DNA of 64,000 bases, from positions 4,502,735 through 4,566,734 of the forward strand of contig NZ_CP062803.1 of NCBI RefSeq assembly GCF_008801925.2, read 5' to 3'. The DNA comes from Cupriavidus basilensis. Lineage in GTDB: Bacteria > Pseudomonadota > Gammaproteobacteria > Burkholderiales > Burkholderiaceae. A program made the translations under genes and the position numbers. Below the pieces are notes generated by a model that searched no databases, was not told the origin of the DNA, and was given only the letters and a program-made list of their open reading frames with translations. Within the stretch, counting starts at the first letter, position 1; each line of letters begins with the position of its first letter. Positions 1 to 6,565 of this stretch are shown here, in pieces.

Positions 1-692
1 ACACCATCCAGGGCTACGGCGCCGCGCCCAATGGCGACCTGAACCCGGAGAAGAGCCGCTCGTTCGAGATCGGCGCGCGCTATACGGATGAACGCGTGCA
101 GACCAGCGTCGCGGTGTTCGACAACCGTTACAAGGACTTCATCGAGCAAGTCGCGCTGCGCTGCCCGTCGGATCCCGCTTGTCTTGCCGGCCTGCGCGCG
201 ACATACCAGTACCGCAACCAGAGCAGCGTGCGCATCTACGGCGCCGAGTGGCGCGGCAGCTACCGCTTCCTGCCGCAATGGCGCGTGGACAGCGCCGTGG
301 CCTACGCGCACGGCAACAACGAGCAGACCGGCCAGCCCCTCAACAGCGTCTCGCCGCTGCGCGCCAGCGCCGCGCTGACGTGGGAGCGCGGCAGCAGCAG
401 CCAGGGCCAGGGCGCAAGCCTGCGCTGGCGCGGCGCGCGCGCCGTGACGCGCACCGACGACACCTCCTTCGCCTACTTCAAGCCGGGCGGCTATGGCGTG
501 GCCGACATCCAGGGCTGGTGGCGCTTTAACCGCTACGCCAGCCTGGTGCTTTCGGTGAATAACGTGTTCGACAAAAAGTACTGGTTGTGGGGCGATGTGC
601 GCCAAGGCAGCGTGGCCGCCAGCGAGCCGGGCCTGGACTTCTATACGCAGCCAGGACGCACCTTTGCCGCCAGCGTGAAGCTGTCGTTCTGA
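1..692 (+). CDS. TonB-dependent outer-membrane receptor, C-terminal part (gene starts before the window)
   Basis: The frame is open from base 3, so only about the last 229 residues are present. The visible part is the beta-barrel end of a TonB-dependent receptor: alternating amphipathic strands, a typical 'NPEKSRSFEIGARY' strand, and a final strand ending VKLSF with the terminal Phe used for outer-membrane assembly. The TonB box and plug lie outside the window. It is 20 bp upstream of the chelatase-like gene and in the same direction, so it is very likely the outer-membrane importer of this operon. The substrate cannot be read from the barrel; the neighbours suggest heme or another tetrapyrrole. 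Confidence 0.9.
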   Translation, partial: TIQGYGAAPNGDLNPEKSRSFEIGARYTDERVQTSVAVFDNRYKDFIEQVALRCPSDPACLAGLRATYQYRNQSSVRIYGAEWRGSYRFLPQWRVDSAVAYAHGNNEQTGQPLNSVSPLRASAALTWERGSSSQGQGASLRWRGARAVTRTDDTSFAYFKPGGYGVADIQGWWRFNRYASLVLSVNNVFDKKYWLWGDVRQGSVAASEPGLDFYTQPGRTFAASVKLSF

Positions 693-712
693 CCAGAGGC
701 GAATCGACCGAC

Positions 713-3700
713 ATGTCCCCACAAGATAAAACCAGGATGCGGCTTGTCCGCGCGTTGTGCCTGCTGTGGATAACCTGGCTGGTGCTCGGCATGCAGCCAG
801 CGTCGGCAGCGCCGCGCATCGCGGTGCTGACCACCTCGCCCGTGCCCGCCGGCAAGTTCGAGCCGCTGCAGGCCATGGCGCGCGCGCACGGCATGACGCT
901 GGATGCGCGCTACCTGGAGCGCATGAACGCGCAGGATATCGCGCCGTTTATCGACGGCGCCAGCCTGCTGATCCTGGATGCGCCACGCGACCATATCGTC
1001 ACCGAGATGCTGGCCAAGCTCGGGCCGCTGTGGACCCATGCGCGCGTGCCGCGCCTGCTGATTGCCACTGACCGCTTCGACGCGCACGGCGTGGATAACG
1101 CGCTGGGCGCGAAGCTGCAGGCGTACTACGTCAATGGCGGCCGTGCCAACTTCGACGCGATGATGCGCACGCTGGCTGCGCAGCAGTTCAAGCTGCATGT
1201 GGACAACGCTATTCCCGCGCCAGTCGTATTCCCCAAGGCCGCTTACTACCATCCGCGGCTTGCCAGCGTGGTGACGGCCTCGCCGGAAGATGCACTCAAG
1301 GTGTCCGGCCACGCCGGTGAACCGGTGATCGGCGTCGCCATCCACCAGGCCTACGTGTCGGGGCTGGACAGTGCCTTTATCGACGACCTGATCGCGCGCA
1401 TCGAAGCGCGCGGCGCGCGCGCGCTGGTGTTCTATAGCGGCGTCATGGAGGCGGGCGGCGTGCAGCACATGGCCGCGCCTGGCGGCAAGCGCATCGTCGA
1501 CGTGCTCATCAACGGCCAGATCATGCTCAACGCGGCTGGCCGCAAGACGGAGTTCGAGGCGCTCGGCATCCCGGTGCTGCAGGTCATGCCTTATCGCAAG
1601 GGCGACGCGCAGGACTGGGAGCGCGACCCGCACGGCATCAGCCTCACGGACACGCCCTTCTACCTCGTGCAGCCCGAGCTGGCCGGCGTGAGCGATCCCA
1701 TGCTGGCCGCAGCCACCTCGCACAAGGACGGCAGTATCGTCAGCCTGCCGGCGCAGCTCGATGCCGTGGCGGACAAGGCGCTGGCGCTCACGCGCCTGCA
1801 GCGCACGCCGAACGCCGACAAGCGCGTGGCGATCCTGTTCTACAACTATCCGGCGGGCGAGAAGAACCTGTCGGCATCGTTCCTCAACCTGCCGCGCAGC
1901 CTGTCGTCCACGCTGGCCGCATTGCATGGGGCCGGCTACCGTACCGATGCTGCGGATGCGCTCGCGCTGCAGCGTGATCTGGGCGCATTGCTCGCACCCT
2001 TCTATCGCGATGGACAACTTGCCGCGCTGCTCGACGCGGATCGCGCGGTGTGGATGCCGATGACGCAATACCGCCGCTGGTACGACGCGCAACCTGCTGC
2101 GTTTCGCGCCGAGGTCAGCGCGCGCTGGGGCGAACCCGAAGCCTCGTCGATGGCGATCCGGCGCAACGGCGTGGCCGGCTTCGCCATCCCGCGCCTGCAA
2201 CTCGGCAACGTGGCCCTGATGCCGGTACCGCCACGCGGCGAGCGCGACGAAGCCGCCGAGAAAGCGCTCTATCACTCCACCAAGACGCCGCTTAGCCATT
2301 TCTACATGGCGGCCTACCTGTGGGCGCGCGAAGGGCGCGAGGCGCTGGTGCACTACGGCACCCACGGCACGCAGGAATGGACACCGGGCAAGGAGCGCGG
2401 CCTGTCCGTGACCGACCAGCCCTACCTGGTGCTCGGCAGCGTGCCGGTGATCTATCCCTATATCGTCGATGACGTCGGCGAGGCACTGCAGGCCAAGCGC
2501 CGTGGCCGCGCCACCATCGTCAGCCACCAGACGCCGCCGTTCAAGCCGGCGGGCCTGCACACGGATCTGTCGGCGCTGCACGACCAGTTGCACAACTACC
2601 TGCAGCAGGACGACGGCGCAGTGAAGGACACGCTGCGCGAGGACATCCTCAAGCGCAGCGCGCGCATGCACCTGCTCGACGACATGGGCTGGCCGCAAGC
2701 CCGCGCGAGCGCGCAGTTTGCCGAATACCTCGATGCGCTGCACACGCATCTGCACGAGCTCGCCGGGGCATTGCAGCCCTACGGCCTGCATACGTTCGGC
2801 CAGTCGCAGGATCCCGAGCTGCGGTTGTACACGGTGATGGCCATGCTCGGGCAACCGTGGCTCAAGCGCGTGTTTCCCGACGAGCCGGAAGAACTGTTCG
2901 CGCTCGACTACAAGCAGCTCGCGCAATCGGCGCCGTACGCCATGCTGCGCAAGTACGTGATCGACGGCGCGCCGCTGACCAACCTTGCCGACGCCAGACA
3001 GCGCGAAGACATGGAGCGTGCCCGCACGCTGTACGCCAGCCTGGATGCCGCGCCGGAGAGCGCATCCATCCTCACCGCGCTGGCCGGGGGCTACGTGCTG
3101 GCCGGCACCGGCGGCGACCCGGTGCGCCATCCCGACGCACTGCCGACCGGGCGCAACCTGTATGGGTTCGATCCCTCGAAGGTACCTAGCCGCGAAGCGT
3201 GGCAGGCCGGCCAGGCCACGGCCGAGAGCATGATTGCCGACTGGCGCAAGCGCCACGGCAAATGGCCCACCAAGCTGGCCTTCTCGCTGTGGAGCGTGGA
3301 GACCATGCGCCATCAGGGCATGCTGGAGGCGCAGGCGATGGCCGCCATGGGCATTCGCCCGAAGTGGGACGGCGGCGGCCGCGTGGTCGGCGTGGAAGCG
3401 ATTCCCGCCGCCGAGCTCAAGCGGCCGCGCGTGGACGTGGTGCTGTCCGCTACCGGCCTCTATCGCGATCACTTTCCCAACCTGATCAAGTGGCTGGCCG
3501 AAGCGGTCAAGCTCGCCGCCGCGCAGCCCGAGCCCGACAACGCCGTTGCCGCCAGCACGCGCGCGCTCAGCGCGCGGCTGGCGCAACGCAAGGCCGCGGA
3601 CATGACCCCGGAGCGCATCGAGTCGCTGGCGCTCACGCGCGTCTTCGCCAGCGAGACCGGCAACTATGGCACGGGACTGAACGACGCTACGCTGGCCAGC

Positions 3701-4780
3701 GACAGCTTCGGTAGCGGCAAGGAAGCGGACGCCAAGCTGGCCAAGCTCTATCTCGCGCGCATGCAATACGGCTATGGGCCCGACGAGAAGACGTGGGGCG
3801 AGAAACTGCCACAACTCAATCTCTACGCAGAGAACCTCAAGGGCGTGGAGGGCGCGCTGCTGGCGCGTAGCTCCAACCTGTACGGCATGCTGACTACCGA
3901 CGATCCTTTCCAGTATCTCGGTGGCATCGGCCTGGCCGTGCGCCACCTGACGGGCAAGGCGCCGGAGCTGCTGATCTCCAACCTGCGCGATGCCAACAGC
4001 GCACGCACGCAGACGGCGGCGTCCTTCCTCGCCACCGAGCTGCGCACGCGCTACTTCCATCCCGGCTGGATCGAAGGCATGAAGGCCGAGGGCTATAGCG
4101 GCGCGCTCAACGTGCTCGATACCGTGAACAATTTCTGGGGCTGGACCGCGGTCGCGCCGGAGATTGTGCGCGACGACCAGTGGACCGAGTTCGCCGAAGT
4201 CTACGTCAAGGACAAGCACAAGCTCGGCCTGGACGCATGGTTCGAGCAGAACGCGCCACAGGCCCAGGCGCAGGTAATCGAGCGCATGCTGGAAGCCGCG
4301 CGCAAGGGCTACTGGCGGGCCGATCCCGAGATGCTCAAGACGCTGGCCGACAGGTGGCGGGCGCTGTCGCAGCGGCACGATATCCGCAGCGACAACCGCA
4401 GCTTCAATCGCTACGTGCAGCAGCAGGCCATGGCGCCCGGCGCCGCGGGCTATGGCACGCAGGCTCCGACGGCACCGCCCGCCGCCGCGCCGAAGGCCGC
4501 GGCCCCGCTGGCGCCGCCGCGTCCTGCCCGGCAGCAAGCACAAGCACAAGCGCAGGCGCAGCCCAAGCCGCAACCCGAGCCCAAGGCACAGCCGCAAACG
4601 GTGCCGGTGCAAGGCATGCAACTGGTCGAGAAAAAGCCTCCCGCTGCGGCGCTCGTGCCCGTGCTGTCGTGGCTTGCCGGCGGCATCGCACTGGCTGGCG
4701 CCATGCTGGGCGGCGCCCTCAGCGCGCGCCGCCGCGCTGGCGCTGCGCCCTTCTTCCAAAAGCAATCCGAAACCCACTGA
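713..4780 (+). CDS. Secreted, membrane-anchored CobN/HmuS-like chelatase homologue
   Basis: 1,355 residues of the CobN/BchH large-subunit family. The start at 713 is chosen because it gives a clean Sec signal peptide (basic n-region, LVRALCLLWITWLVLG core, cleavage near ASA-AP). The family signature HYGTHGTQEWTPGKE is at about residues 547-561, followed by a 'VPVIYPYIVDDVGEALQAKRRG' block. After about residue 1240 comes a Pro/Ala/Gln-rich linker, then a transmembrane helix at about 1314-1336 and a short Arg-rich tail. The chelatase domain should therefore sit in the periplasm, tethered to the inner membrane. Classical CobN works in the cytoplasm with the AAA+ partners CobS and CobT, neither of which is here. 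Periplasmic CobN homologues of the HmuS type belong to heme-uptake loci, so a role in metal removal from (or handling of) an imported tetrapyrrole is inferred. Cobalamin is an alternative. Confidence 0.85.
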   Translation: MSPQDKTRMRLVRALCLLWITWLVLGMQPASAAPRIAVLTTSPVPAGKFEPLQAMARAHGMTLDARYLERMNAQDIAPFIDGASLLILDAPRDHIVTEMLAKLGPLWTHARVPRLLIATDRFDAHGVDNALGAKLQAYYVNGGRANFDAMMRTLAAQQFKLHVDNAIPAPVVFPKAAYYHPRLASVVTASPEDALKVSGHAGEPVIGVAIHQAYVSGLDSAFIDDLIARIEARGARALVFYSGVMEAGGVQHMAAPGGKRIVDVLINGQIMLNAAGRKTEFEALGIPVLQVMPYRKGDAQDWERDPHGISLTDTPFYLVQPELAGVSDPMLAAATSHKDGSIVSLPAQLDAVADKALALTRLQRTPNADKRVAILFYNYPAGEKNLSASFLNLPRSLSSTLAALHGAGYRTDAADALALQRDLGALLAPFYRDGQLAALLDADRAVWMPMTQYRRWYDAQPAAFRAEVSARWGEPEASSMAIRRNGVAGFAIPRLQLGNVALMPVPPRGERDEAAEKALYHSTKTPLSHFYMAAYLWAREGREALVHYGTHGTQEWTPGKERGLSVTDQPYLVLGSVPVIYPYIVDDVGEALQAKRRGRATIVSHQTPPFKPAGLHTDLSALHDQLHNYLQQDDGAVKDTLREDILKRSARMHLLDDMGWPQARASAQFAEYLDALHTHLHELAGALQPYGLHTFGQSQDPELRLYTVMAMLGQPWLKRVFPDEPEELFALDYKQLAQSAPYAMLRKYVIDGAPLTNLADARQREDMERARTLYASLDAAPESASILTALAGGYVLAGTGGDPVRHPDALPTGRNLYGFDPSKVPSREAWQAGQATAESMIADWRKRHGKWPTKLAFSLWSVETMRHQGMLEAQAMAAMGIRPKWDGGGRVVGVEAIPAAELKRPRVDVVLSATGLYRDHFPNLIKWLAEAVKLAAAQPEPDNAVAASTRALSARLAQRKAADMTPERIESLALTRVFASETGNYGTGLNDATLASDSFGSGKEADAKLAKLYLARMQYGYGPDEKTWGEKLPQLNLYAENLKGVEGALLARSSNLYGMLTTDDPFQYLGGIGLAVRHLTGKAPELLISNLRDANSARTQTAASFLATELRTRYFHPGWIEGMKAEGYSGALNVLDTVNNFWGWTAVAPEIVRDDQWTEFAEVYVKDKHKLGLDAWFEQNAPQAQAQVIERMLEAARKGYWRADPEMLKTLADRWRALSQRHDIRSDNRSFNRYVQQQAMAPGAAGYGTQAPTAPPAAAPKAAAPLAPPRPARQQAQAQAQAQPKPQPEPKAQPQTVPVQGMQLVEKKPPAAALVPVLSWLAGGIALAGAMLGGALSARRRAGAAPFFQKQSETH

Positions 4781-4786
4781 CGCATC

Positions 4787-5296
4787 ATGACTCCTACCCT
4801 GCTTGAAACCCTGATGTACGACGTCGGCCAGTTGTTCCTGTTTCCGACGCTGGCCCTGATCGGGCTGCTGTTCCTGTACGCCTTCTGGGCGCTCGGCGAG
4901 TTCATCACGCAAGGCTGGCAACGCCGCCGTCACGGCATTGAGACGGGGCGCGGCTATGTGCTGGTCGCGTTCGCCCTGCGCCACCGTATCCAGGACCCGG
5001 ACACGCTTGACGTGACCGCGCACCGCCTGCTGGAGTGGCCGCGCATTGCCACGCGCGTCGCGCCGATGCTAGGACTGGTGGCCACCATGATCCCGATGGG
5101 GCCCGCGCTCAAGGGCCTGTCCGGGGGCAACCTCGCCAACGTGGGCGAGAACCTCACCATCGCGTTTTCCGCGGTGATTCTTGCGCTGATCGCTGCCAGC
5201 ATCACCTTCTGGGTGGTCAACGTGCGTCGCCGCTGGCTCGCCGAGGAGCTGGTGTGGCTGGGCAAGCATCAACCGCAGTGGGAGGTGGACGCATGA
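4787..5296 (+). CDS. MotA/TolQ/ExbB-type proton channel protein
   Basis: 169 residues with three predicted membrane helices (about 13-35, 78-100 and 120-145). The second carries RVAPMLGLVATMIPMGPAL, which matches the ExbB/TolQ signature region around the conserved GLxGT. The protein is shorter than classical ExbB. It starts 6 bp after the chelatase-like gene, and its stop overlaps the next start as ATGA, so the pair should be translationally coupled. It probably forms a proton-driven inner-membrane complex with the DUF2149 protein. Whether that complex drives the receptor through TonB or acts directly on the anchored chelatase is not known. Confidence 0.85.
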   Translation: MTPTLLETLMYDVGQLFLFPTLALIGLLFLYAFWALGEFITQGWQRRRHGIETGRGYVLVAFALRHRIQDPDTLDVTAHRLLEWPRIATRVAPMLGLVATMIPMGPALKGLSGGNLANVGENLTIAFSAVILALIAASITFWVVNVRRRWLAEELVWLGKHQPQWEVDA

Positions 5297-5613
5297 AGTT
5301 CCTGGAGGAGAGCGAGGCCGACGATCCCATCCTGTCGGTAGTCAACCTGATCGACGTGTTCCTGGTGGTGATCGCCGCGTTGCTGGTGGCCATCGCGCAG
5401 AACCCGATGAACCCGTTCACGCACGCGGACGTCACCATCATCACCAATCCGGGCAAGCCCAACATGGAGATCGTCTCCAAGCAGGGCGAGAAGGTCGTGC
5501 GCTACCAGGCCAGCGGCCAGGTCGGCAGCGGTGACGGCACCAAGGCCGGCGTGGCGTACCGGTTGCAGGACGGCTCGATGGTGTATGTGCCGGAAGCCGC
5601 GGCCGCGCGGTAA
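5293..5613 (+). CDS. DUF2149 family protein, ExbD-like small subunit
   Basis: 106 residues. The start at 5293 overlaps the stop of the ExbB-like gene. A short acidic cytoplasmic N-terminus precedes one membrane helix, NLIDVFLVVIAALLVAIA (about 18-35), and then a small periplasmic domain. The Asp at about position 21, at the start of the helix, lies in an 'LIDVfLv' context like that of ExbD and TolR, where the Asp is the proton-carrying residue. DUF2149 proteins are known as neighbours of ExbB-like and CobN-like genes. The ExbD-like function is inferred from topology and this motif only. Confidence 0.8.
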   Translation: MKFLEESEADDPILSVVNLIDVFLVVIAALLVAIAQNPMNPFTHADVTIITNPGKPNMEIVSKQGEKVVRYQASGQVGSGDGTKAGVAYRLQDGSMVYVPEAAAAR

Positions 5614-5665
5614 AACTGCGCAATAATGAGCACAAGCGAGCCATCGCAACCAGGATTACTTAGCC

Positions 5666-6565
5666 ATGCGGATTCGTCACAGCGTTGCCAGCCTAGCCAG
5701 TTATGTCCCTACCCGCGCCGCCGCACTGGCGCTCGCGGCCGCCATGTTCGCCGCGCTCGCCGGTTGCGCCGGCACGCCACCCGCCGCCGTGGCTGGCGAT
5801 GTCGCGCATCAGTTCACCGGCAAGACCTATGTGCTGCTGGGCGAGGTCCACGACAACGCCGATGGGCAAAAGCGGCGCCTGCTGGCGTTGTCCGACGCAC
5901 TGGCAGCCGGCTGGCGCCCGGCCATCGCGATGGAACAGTTCGACCGCGAGCGCCAGGCCGATATCGATCGCGCCCGCCGCGAGCGGCCCGGCGACGCGGC
6001 GTATGTCGTGGCGCAGGCGGGTGGAAAGAGCTGGCAGTGGGAGCTTTACACGCCGGTAGTGGCGCTGGCCTTGCGCTACGACCTGCCGCTGGTGGCGGCC
6101 AACCTGTCGCGCGCGGATGCAAGCAAGATCGTGCGCGACGGGCTGGACGGCGTGTTCGATGCGACGCAGCGCAAGCGCCTCGGCCTCGCCGCGCCGCTGC
6201 CCGCGGACGTGGTGACCGAGCAGACCGCGGTGCTTGACCGTGGCCACTGCGGCAATTTCCCCAAGTCCATGCTGCCCGGCATGCTGGACGCGCAGGCCGC
6301 GCGCGATGCGGTCATGGCGGCCTCCATGCGCGAATACGCCGACCGCGGCGCCGTGCTGATCGCCGGCAACGGCCACGTGCGGCGCGATGTGGGCGCGCCG
6401 CGCTGGCTCGCCGCCGAGCCGGGCGCGATCTACAGCGTGGGTTACCTGGAGCAGGCCAGCGGCCACGAGATCGGCGCCTATGATCGCGTGGTGCTGGTGC
6501 CGGTGCACAAGCGGCCTGATCCGTGCGAGGGCGCCAAGCCGGCGGCAATGGCCGAGCCGGCCTGA
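5666..6565 (+). CDS. ChaN family heme-binding lipoprotein
   Basis: 299 residues. The N-terminus has a long signal sequence ending in a lipobox (AALAGC) with Cys near residue 33, so the mature protein is a lipoprotein. The family signature TYVLLGEVHDNADGQ follows, then AMEQFDRERQ and the C-terminal VLIAGNGHVRRDVG. This is the ChaN-like 'cofactor heme-binding' family (PF04187); the Campylobacter ChaN structure holds heme and is iron-regulated. It begins 52 bp after the DUF2149 gene on the same strand, so it probably closes the operon. Its presence is the strongest local hint that the operon handles heme. No Fur box was identified because the operon promoter is outside the window. Confidence 0.85.
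   Translation: MRIRHSVASLASYVPTRAAALALAAAMFAALAGCAGTPPAAVAGDVAHQFTGKTYVLLGEVHDNADGQKRRLLALSDALAAGWRPAIAMEQFDRERQADIDRARRERPGDAAYVVAQAGGKSWQWELYTPVVALALRYDLPLVAANLSRADASKIVRDGLDGVFDATQRKRLGLAAPLPADVVTEQTAVLDRGHCGNFPKSMLPGMLDAQAARDAVMAASMREYADRGAVLIAGNGHVRRDVGAPRWLAAEPGAIYSVGYLEQASGHEIGAYDRVVLVPVHKRPDPCEGAKPAAMAEPA

Follow-up and report, generated by a model that had tools for sequence, protein, structure and literature searches.

The window analysed here, a 64,000-nucleotide stretch of the 8.94 Mb genome of Cupriavidus basilensis (contig C1:4502735-4566734), begins within a five-gene operon centred on an exported homologue of the chelatase CobN. A first-pass annotation had described a tightly spaced series on one strand encoding a TonB-dependent receptor, a CobN homologue, an ExbB-like protein, a DUF2149 protein and a ChaN-type lipoprotein, and reading frames together with Pfam confirm that layout (Table 1). 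Families were assigned with Pfam and NCBIfam; labels beginning with L denote the genomic stretches compared, and those beginning with G the genomes of a genus sample. Successive genes are spaced by 20, 6, -4 (an ATGA overlap) and 52 bases, the receptor has the TonB_dep_Rec and Plug domains, RND efflux genes precede the operon, and the gene 3' of chaN lies on the opposite strand (8070-6580). As had been claimed, there is no ATPase gene among the operon's genes; nor is there a tonB and, by Pfam, a permease or a biosynthetic gene. A co-occurrence survey found the order receptor-CobN-ExbB-DUF2149 again in 20 other genomes of the genus, with broken or shortened frames in three of them (CobN in L099 and L125, the receptor in L127); the L100 stretch stops short of ChaN.

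Table 1. Features of the chelatase operon, in window positions unless an L label is given
Feature	Position	Strand	Basis or remark
TonB-dependent receptor, 3' part	1..692 (frame 3-692)	+	cut by window edge
Whole receptor gene	L004:6133-8427		starts ~1,600 bases upstream of window
CobN-like chelatase, exported and anchored, 1,355 aa	713..4780	+	CobN-Mg_chel PF02514, 980 bits
Signal peptide of CobN-like protein, ~residues 1-33 (...QPASA/AP)	713..811	+	read by eye
His551 codon (HYGTHG), equivalent to HmuS His538	2363..2365	+	alignment, 103 homologues
Asp1063 codon, opposite HmuS His1209	3899..3901	+	TTDDPFQYLGG vs LSLDHVYEFMGG
C-terminal transmembrane anchor of CobN-like protein, then RRR	4652..4720	+	by eye, with hydrophobicity control over homologues
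ExbB/TolQ/MotA-like proton channel subunit, 169 aa	4787..5296	+	MotA_ExbB PF01618, 25.9 bits
DUF2149 protein, 106 aa, one transmembrane helix with acidic residue	5293..5613	+	PF09919, 100.8 bits
ChaN-type lipoprotein, 299 aa	5666..6565	+	PF04187, 145 bits
ChaN lipobox LAGC	5756..5767	+	read by eye

An exported CobN homologue and its putative membrane partners

Read by eye, without a predictor, the N-terminus of the CobN-like protein is a signal peptide, and residues ~1314-1336 form a hydrophobic stretch followed by RRR. Under a simple hydrophobicity cut-off, 14 of 20 window-clade sequences have a C-terminal membrane segment, as against none of six canonical CobNs, taken from the host genome and five relatives. 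Inspection and hydrophobicity together support the earlier claim of an exported, membrane-anchored CobN homologue. The protein passes NF004644, named CobN (1395 bits, cut-off 1248), and stays below the cut-off of TIGR02257, canonical CobN (540 bits, cut-off 822); its top PDB matches are HmuS (9d26, E 2.8e-114) and Mycobacterium tuberculosis CobN (7c6o, E 2.7e-109), and its named near relatives include Cupriavidus basilensis (88% identity) and other Cupriavidus. His551 is conserved in 96% of 103 aligned homologues. In a FastTree phylogeny, 20 window-type sequences and one Azospirillum sequence form a clade of their own (support 100), beside clades of five rows with HmuS motifs (100), set B, a second CobN type of this genus (100), archaea (99) and canonical CobN (100); with the long branches and odd composition flagged in the FastTree output, the branching order among these clades is unsure.

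With cytoplasmic CobN the window protein shares homology over the whole CobN domain and an Asp opposite HmuS His1209, and it differs in its signal peptide and anchor and in having no linked ATPase. The shared Asp would suit an enzyme that inserts metal, for example into a periplasmic porphyrin; the Fur-like control and uptake receptor described below suit acquisition instead, the operon contains no biosynthetic gene, and we regard insertion as highly improbable.

The ExbB-like protein matches PF01618 weakly (cut-off 22.9), while its profile matches that of canonical ExbB with 94.8% probability, and its Thr100 is shared by every one of 87 relatives. The membrane Asp of DUF2149 is Asp in 91 and Glu in one of 92 sequences. 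The AlphaFold model of DUF2149 has a confident helix (residues 12-35) and a low-confidence beta part, with a mean pLDDT of 67.4.

Distribution of the ExbB-DUF2149 pair

Among 60 genomes drawn from the genus, which include the host's own and whose relatedness was not modelled, 36 contain DUF2149. All but one of these also have CobN homologues (35/36: the own genome, 10/10 and 24/25), although as fragments only in G035 and G041; the remaining genome, G029, retains just a 55-residue DUF2149 remnant. None of the 24 genomes without DUF2149 has a CobN homologue, and 21 of these are at least 90% complete and little contaminated. Decay of the locus is visible in G029, G035 and G041 (L135, L136 and L122, respectively), and in G035 DUF2149 lies in two pieces ~1.8 kb apart, with a CobN fragment. 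Eight genomes (G005, G010, G022, G027, G028, G036, G037 and G050) carry ExbB-DUF2149-ChaN at the locus without a receptor or CobN match in the stretch compared; in L109 and L128, ExbB comes directly after the RND efflux genes. Each of the eight has a single DUF2149 and encodes, at another site, a B-type CobN whose N-terminus is hydrophobic; a C-terminal anchor was seen by eye in 7 of 7 readable cases, and no ExbB or DUF2149 match lies beside these B-type genes, the eighth of which (L144) begins at a contig end. Both CobN types are present in G004, G009, G011, G013 and G018, with a single DUF2149 at the window-type locus. This co-inheritance favours ExbB/DUF2149 as a motor for the chelatase, not for the receptor.

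A scan with the DUF2149 alignment gave 80 loci, the best among the matches listed rather than a random sample, which were annotated with hidden Markov models (HMMs) built from 1 to 11 sequences each. Among the matches listed, the 52 bacterial loci carry ExbB in 49, CobN in 49 and a receptor in 36; where 4.5 kb is available on both sides, CobN is found in 26 of 26, within 1 kb in 23. The 28 archaeal loci among the same matches carry ExbB in 26, DUF2162 in 23 and CobN in 18, and a receptor, TonB or ExbD in none; with room on both sides, CobN is found in 14 of 19, within 1 kb in 10. Archaeal CobNs have a hydrophobic N-terminus in 17 of 20 cases and a hydrophobic C-terminus in 17 of 20. These DUF2162-ExbB-DUF2149-CobN cassettes of methanogenic and methane-oxidising archaea thus place the same motor pair by a CobN homologue, and they differ from the window operon in having no receptor, in the additional predicted transporter DUF2162 and in their separate chelatase clade. 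Archaea have no outer membrane, so that ExbB-DUF2149 cannot serve a TonB receptor there. Together, the genus and archaeal distributions bear out the proposal that ExbB/DUF2149 tracks CobN and not the receptor. In Trichlorobacter lovleyi, ExbB-DUF2149-CobN adjoins a separate ExbB-ExbD-TonB set, and its CobN has been noted as lacking CobS/CobT, with a role described as unknown (PMC3403914).

The pair could, however, energise the outer-membrane receptor and leave the chelatase motor-free, as in the model in which HmuU and HmuV are assigned to the receptor HmuR (PMC12583661). The receptor is the operon's first gene, and in G053 the locus has a receptor, DUF2149, and ExbB and ChaN in pieces, with no CobN there and a B-type CobN elsewhere. 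Furthermore, purified HmuS is reported to strip iron with NADH, without a motor protein (PMC12583661), so that the motor is perhaps not needed for catalysis. Against service to the receptor stand the archaeal cassettes and the eight Cupriavidus loci, whose lack of a receptor also speaks against HmuU/HmuV serving one, the separate ExbB-ExbD-TonB set of Trichlorobacter, and the absence of tonB from the operon; we consider this alternative quite unlikely. Apart from G053 and the activity of HmuS alone, other observations also count against a motor dedicated to the chelatase. The window ExbB has Val130 in its third membrane segment where 75 of 87 relatives have Thr, and the proton path of the window clade may be changed at this residue. 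DUF2149 shares with ExbD and TolR one acidic transmembrane helix but shows no sequence match to ExbD (hhalign probability 0.4%, with only three ExbD rows). G041 keeps an intact DUF2149, beside ExbB and ChaN, with CobN fragments only, and 5 of the 19 archaeal cassettes with room on both sides have DUF2162-ExbB-DUF2149 with no CobN nearby (L058, L063, L064, L081 and L094).

Probable iron control, cargo and the proposed cycle

A Fur-box-like element, GATAATAATTCGCATTCTC (L004:6013-6031), lies ~100 bases before the receptor start codon and matches a Fur consensus at 15 of 19 positions; one Fur and one Zur consensus were used. Elements scoring 13-15 of 19 occur in 21 of 21 genus loci that keep receptor and CobN, where first-order resampled sequences average ~10; all 21 promoters reach P < 0.05 for the Fur consensus, and being mutually related they do not amount to 21 independent cases. 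The best score anywhere in the 64-kb window is 12, and the box columns are 90% conserved, compared with 50% upstream and 76% downstream. The Zur consensus reaches P < 0.05 in one of the 21 promoters, and no riboswitch was found at the window operon (L004). Fur presumably binds the receptor promoter, and the operon is apparently iron-controlled.

The receptor passes both heme-receptor cut-offs (TIGR01786, 417.6 bits, cut-off 323.75; TIGR01785, 409.1 bits, cut-off 316.85), whereas none of six control receptors from hmu, cobalt, nickel and sister operons does. Since the HmuR-type receptors are among those that fail, the heme label is neither necessary nor proof. The lipoprotein has both the PF04187 domain and a lipobox, matches PDB 2g5g, a putative lipoprotein, weakly (E 0.006), and presumably binds heme, as ChaN does. 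The idea that ChaN belongs to such machines in general was dropped, since an HMM built on 29 ChaNs of the genus found no further matching frame in the loci L004-L098. The genome gave no hit to heme oxygenase (PF01126), HemS (PF05171) or DUF2470 (PF10615), the three heme-utilisation families searched; IsdG-type enzymes and heme importers lay outside this search. The receptor family, ChaN and the Fur-like promoter make heme the likely substrate.

In the cycle that we propose, the TonB-dependent receptor would import a metal-tetrapyrrole (most probably heme), and in the periplasm the anchored chelatase would extract its metal in a pocket that surrounds His551. The ExbB-like protein and DUF2149 would form an inner-membrane, proton-driven motor for the conformational cycle of the chelatase, standing in for the AAA+ ATPases that serve cytoplasmic CobN, and this motor may act when substrate is loaded or product released; ChaN would keep heme, or the porphyrin left after metal removal, at the membrane. 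The first-pass annotation had proposed protons rather than ATP as the source of power. The co-inheritance of ExbB/DUF2149 with CobN supports that proposal, as does HmuS, which is reported to do without ATP in vitro (PMC12583661); the powering of metal removal, like the direction of the reaction (metal release), is what we infer. An iron-starvation operon for proton-driven periplasmic metal removal, most likely from heme, is accordingly a reading that we advance tentatively and that could well prove wrong.

Weighing against it, on the side of the enzyme, are differences from HmuS. The marks of the HmuS family are reported to be Met79, His254-Gly-Arg, His538, LSLDHxxEFMGG with His1209, and a Met-rich insertion; His538 is catalytic, and the H538A variant is inactive, with turnover lost (PMC12583661). 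In the window protein, the motif HFG(T/A)HG with the catalytic His is present as HYGTHG (His551). The heme ligands Met79-Gly80 and His254-Gly-Arg are not, Pro and Ile standing at those columns; as the head domain aligns poorly with HmuS, the Met79 column is less certain. TTDDPFQYLGG, with Asp1063, replaces LSLDHxxEFMGG, and the Met-rich insertion (HmuS 780-898) is missing, query residues 722-781 facing chain residues 708-933. The Bacteroides and Prevotella HmuS rows of the 103-homologue alignment carry both the ligand and the His1209 motifs. Judged by that family's defining residues, the window CobN homologue is not an HmuS: of the HmuS-like identity first assigned to it the catalytic His is kept, whereas the heme ligands, His1209 and the Met-rich insertion are missing and the clade is separate. 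Substitute ligands for Met79 and His254 were looked for among the private conserved residues of the window clade (for example His211 and His1116), but no evidence links these to metal binding, and the idea was dropped. A CobN homologue of G016 (L101) has HGR and SLDHVYEF motifs and groups with HmuS in the tree, so that HmuS-like signatures extend to this betaproteobacterial genus.

On the side of the cargo, the segment between FRAP-like and NPNL-like motifs, where heme receptors carry a His, lacks one in all 18 genus receptors that show the pattern, the window's own included (three more have no match to the pattern); this would weaken heme as the substrate. The one receptor tested from a Diaphorobacter operon of the window clade has no NCBIfam match at 1e-30. 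In addition, the Pseudomonas aeruginosa operon PA1922-PA1925, which has the same gene order, belongs to the Zur regulon and is linked to zinc; PA1922 rises 147-fold in a znuA mutant, and its precise role is described as undetermined in those accounts (PMC9431628, PMC4542158, PMC8531726, PMC13083405). All of this would fit the same machine working on another cargo, with metal taken from a non-heme chelate such as a siderophore, a zincophore or a cobalt or nickel complex and the heme label being a family name, and so would the missing HmuS heme ligands and the finding of other trios with B12 riboswitches, hyp genes or nikR. The receptor does pass two heme cut-offs, unlike the six others tested (though HmuR-type receptors fail too), ChaN is attached, and the promoter is Fur-like, not Zur-like; a different cargo thus seems to us somewhat unlikely. 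A sister operon on a Diaphorobacter plasmid (L014) has two receptors, ExbB, DUF2149 and ABC transporter genes, with no ChaN annotated.

Metal removal as such is called into question by Bacteroides fragilis, in which a btuS double mutant still formed free protoporphyrin IX (PMC6460266). This, together with the HmuTUV model of P. gingivalis, in which HmuU/HmuV are assigned to heme import (PMC13227078), and with the frequency of the predicted transporters DUF2162 or HmuT in the cassettes, would suit a CobN-like protein that acts as a periplasmic carrier and delivers the metal chelate unaltered to an importer of the inner membrane that includes ExbB/DUF2149. The window operon has no permease gene, however, and the conserved catalytic His, whose loss abolishes HmuS turnover (PMC12583661), argues for an enzyme, so we find such a carrier very doubtful. 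Homology of HmuT with DUF2162 or NicO-type transporters was considered and found unsupported (probability at most 13.5%).

Related operons, ATPase partners and other metals

The first-pass annotation had seen an equivalent of the HmuS machine in an aerobic betaproteobacterium. That part of it is weakened in that an equivalent operon, PA1922-PA1925 of P. aeruginosa, is already published as receptor, CobN-like, ExbB/ExbD-like and DUF2149 genes in the same order (PMC9431628, PMC4542158). It shares the order receptor-CobN-ExbB-DUF2149 with the window, from which it differs in its Zur control, not borne out at the genus promoters with the one Zur consensus used, and in that ChaN does not appear in the published gene tables. 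The window DUF2149 is 73% identical to two Pseudomonas DUF2149 proteins (P0037 and P0041), and PA1923 would presumably belong to the window clade. The hmuYRSTUV operon of Bacteroidota, which is iron-responsive, likewise has a receptor, an exported and anchored CobN homologue, the ExbB-like HmuU and the DUF2149 protein HmuV in one operon; in contrast to it, the window operon has an additional ChaN, a chelatase in a separate clade and no hmuY or hmuT, for neither was found in it. The trios of Bacteroides, Prevotella and Aureibacter sit with hmuY-type genes. The trio itself is therefore known, matching hmuS/hmuU/hmuV and PA1923-PA1925, and the window operon is a real and well-bounded, apparently iron-controlled, ChaN-equipped variant of a known gene set. 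A statement that ExbB/DUF2149 drives the chelatase was not found in the literature searched, a body that leaves out most subscription papers and preprints held only by bioRxiv.

In all, the host genome carries three genes for CobN homologues and two for DUF2149, the window operon being set A. Set B, on the second large contig (L005:9189-19691 and L006), consists of ExbB, DUF2149 and an anchored CobN just before CobW and a canonical CobN (L005:15861-19691), which stands beside TIGR02442-type partners; beyond it lie AAA-/VWA-type partners, and the opposite strand encodes a NicO-type permease and a receptor whose gene has a cobalamin riboswitch. The genome may thus run separate iron and cobalt versions of ExbB-DUF2149-CobN.

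In a survey that scored at most 24 first-pass candidates per genome, 20 of 36 genomes have canonical CobN (>1,300 bits), and these same 20 have a TIGR02442 AAA/VWA partner, invariably adjacent to it; G049 has a canonical-type CobN piece at a contig end and no TIGR02442 match. In eleven genomes (G002, G003, G008, G014, G024, G025, G044, G045, G054, G058 and G059) the window-type protein is the sole CobN homologue and TIGR02442 finds no match, which upholds the view that this protein works apart from the canonical ATPase partner. The expected absence of CobS/CobT held for the operon and not for the genome. A CobS-like gene scoring >500 bits (cut-off 558) is present in 12 of 14 genomes searched, the host's own included (G024 gives 35 bits, G016 none), and ten of the eleven genomes with only the window-type CobN have one, which tells against a clean absence of CobS/CobT. 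An exported chelatase would, however, be out of reach of a cytoplasmic ATPase, and G024 has the operon without a CobS-like gene above 35 bits. In the host genome the CobS-like and CobT-like genes (L145:4221-8925) score below curated cut-offs and lie next to xsc, the gene for sulfoacetaldehyde acetyltransferase, in a taurine locus remote from every CobN. L146 has a comparable pair, and in G003 a CobS-like gene stands beside a CobT-like gene with phosphate acetyltransferase ~3 kb off.

Beyond the genus, the trio of Runella (L012) lies inside a hyp hydrogenase-maturation cluster and that of Azospirillum L017 near nikR and a riboswitch, both pointing to nickel. Cobalamin riboswitches are present in 13 of 24 loci scanned (7/8, 2/8 and 4/8), which were picked from ~90 mostly for their long flanks. 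In Methanosarcina barkeri, two BtuS proteins are reported to vary with the iron source (PMC10846266). It is plausible, though we propose it with reserve, that CobN-like/ExbB/DUF2149 is a general proton-driven, TonB-independent metal-release machine, an exported class I chelatase with an ExbB-type motor in place of the AAA+ ATPase of its cytoplasmic relatives. It would be present in archaea too and re-used under iron, cobalt, nickel or zinc control, its receptors and transporters varying, with HmuS and PA1923 as branches and the window operon as the branch that has ChaN and answers to Fur. Were this so, a role would be explained for HmuU/HmuV and PA1924/PA1925, whose function the published accounts link to the receptor or to heme import, or do not settle; motors of the ExbB/TolQ/MotA type would gain a new job, that of driving an enzyme; and aerobic bacteria would gain a ring-sparing route to tetrapyrrole metals without heme oxygenase. 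Within the scanned loci the riboswitches can be clustered, with three at L057:5608-7464 and two at L010:4861-5327.

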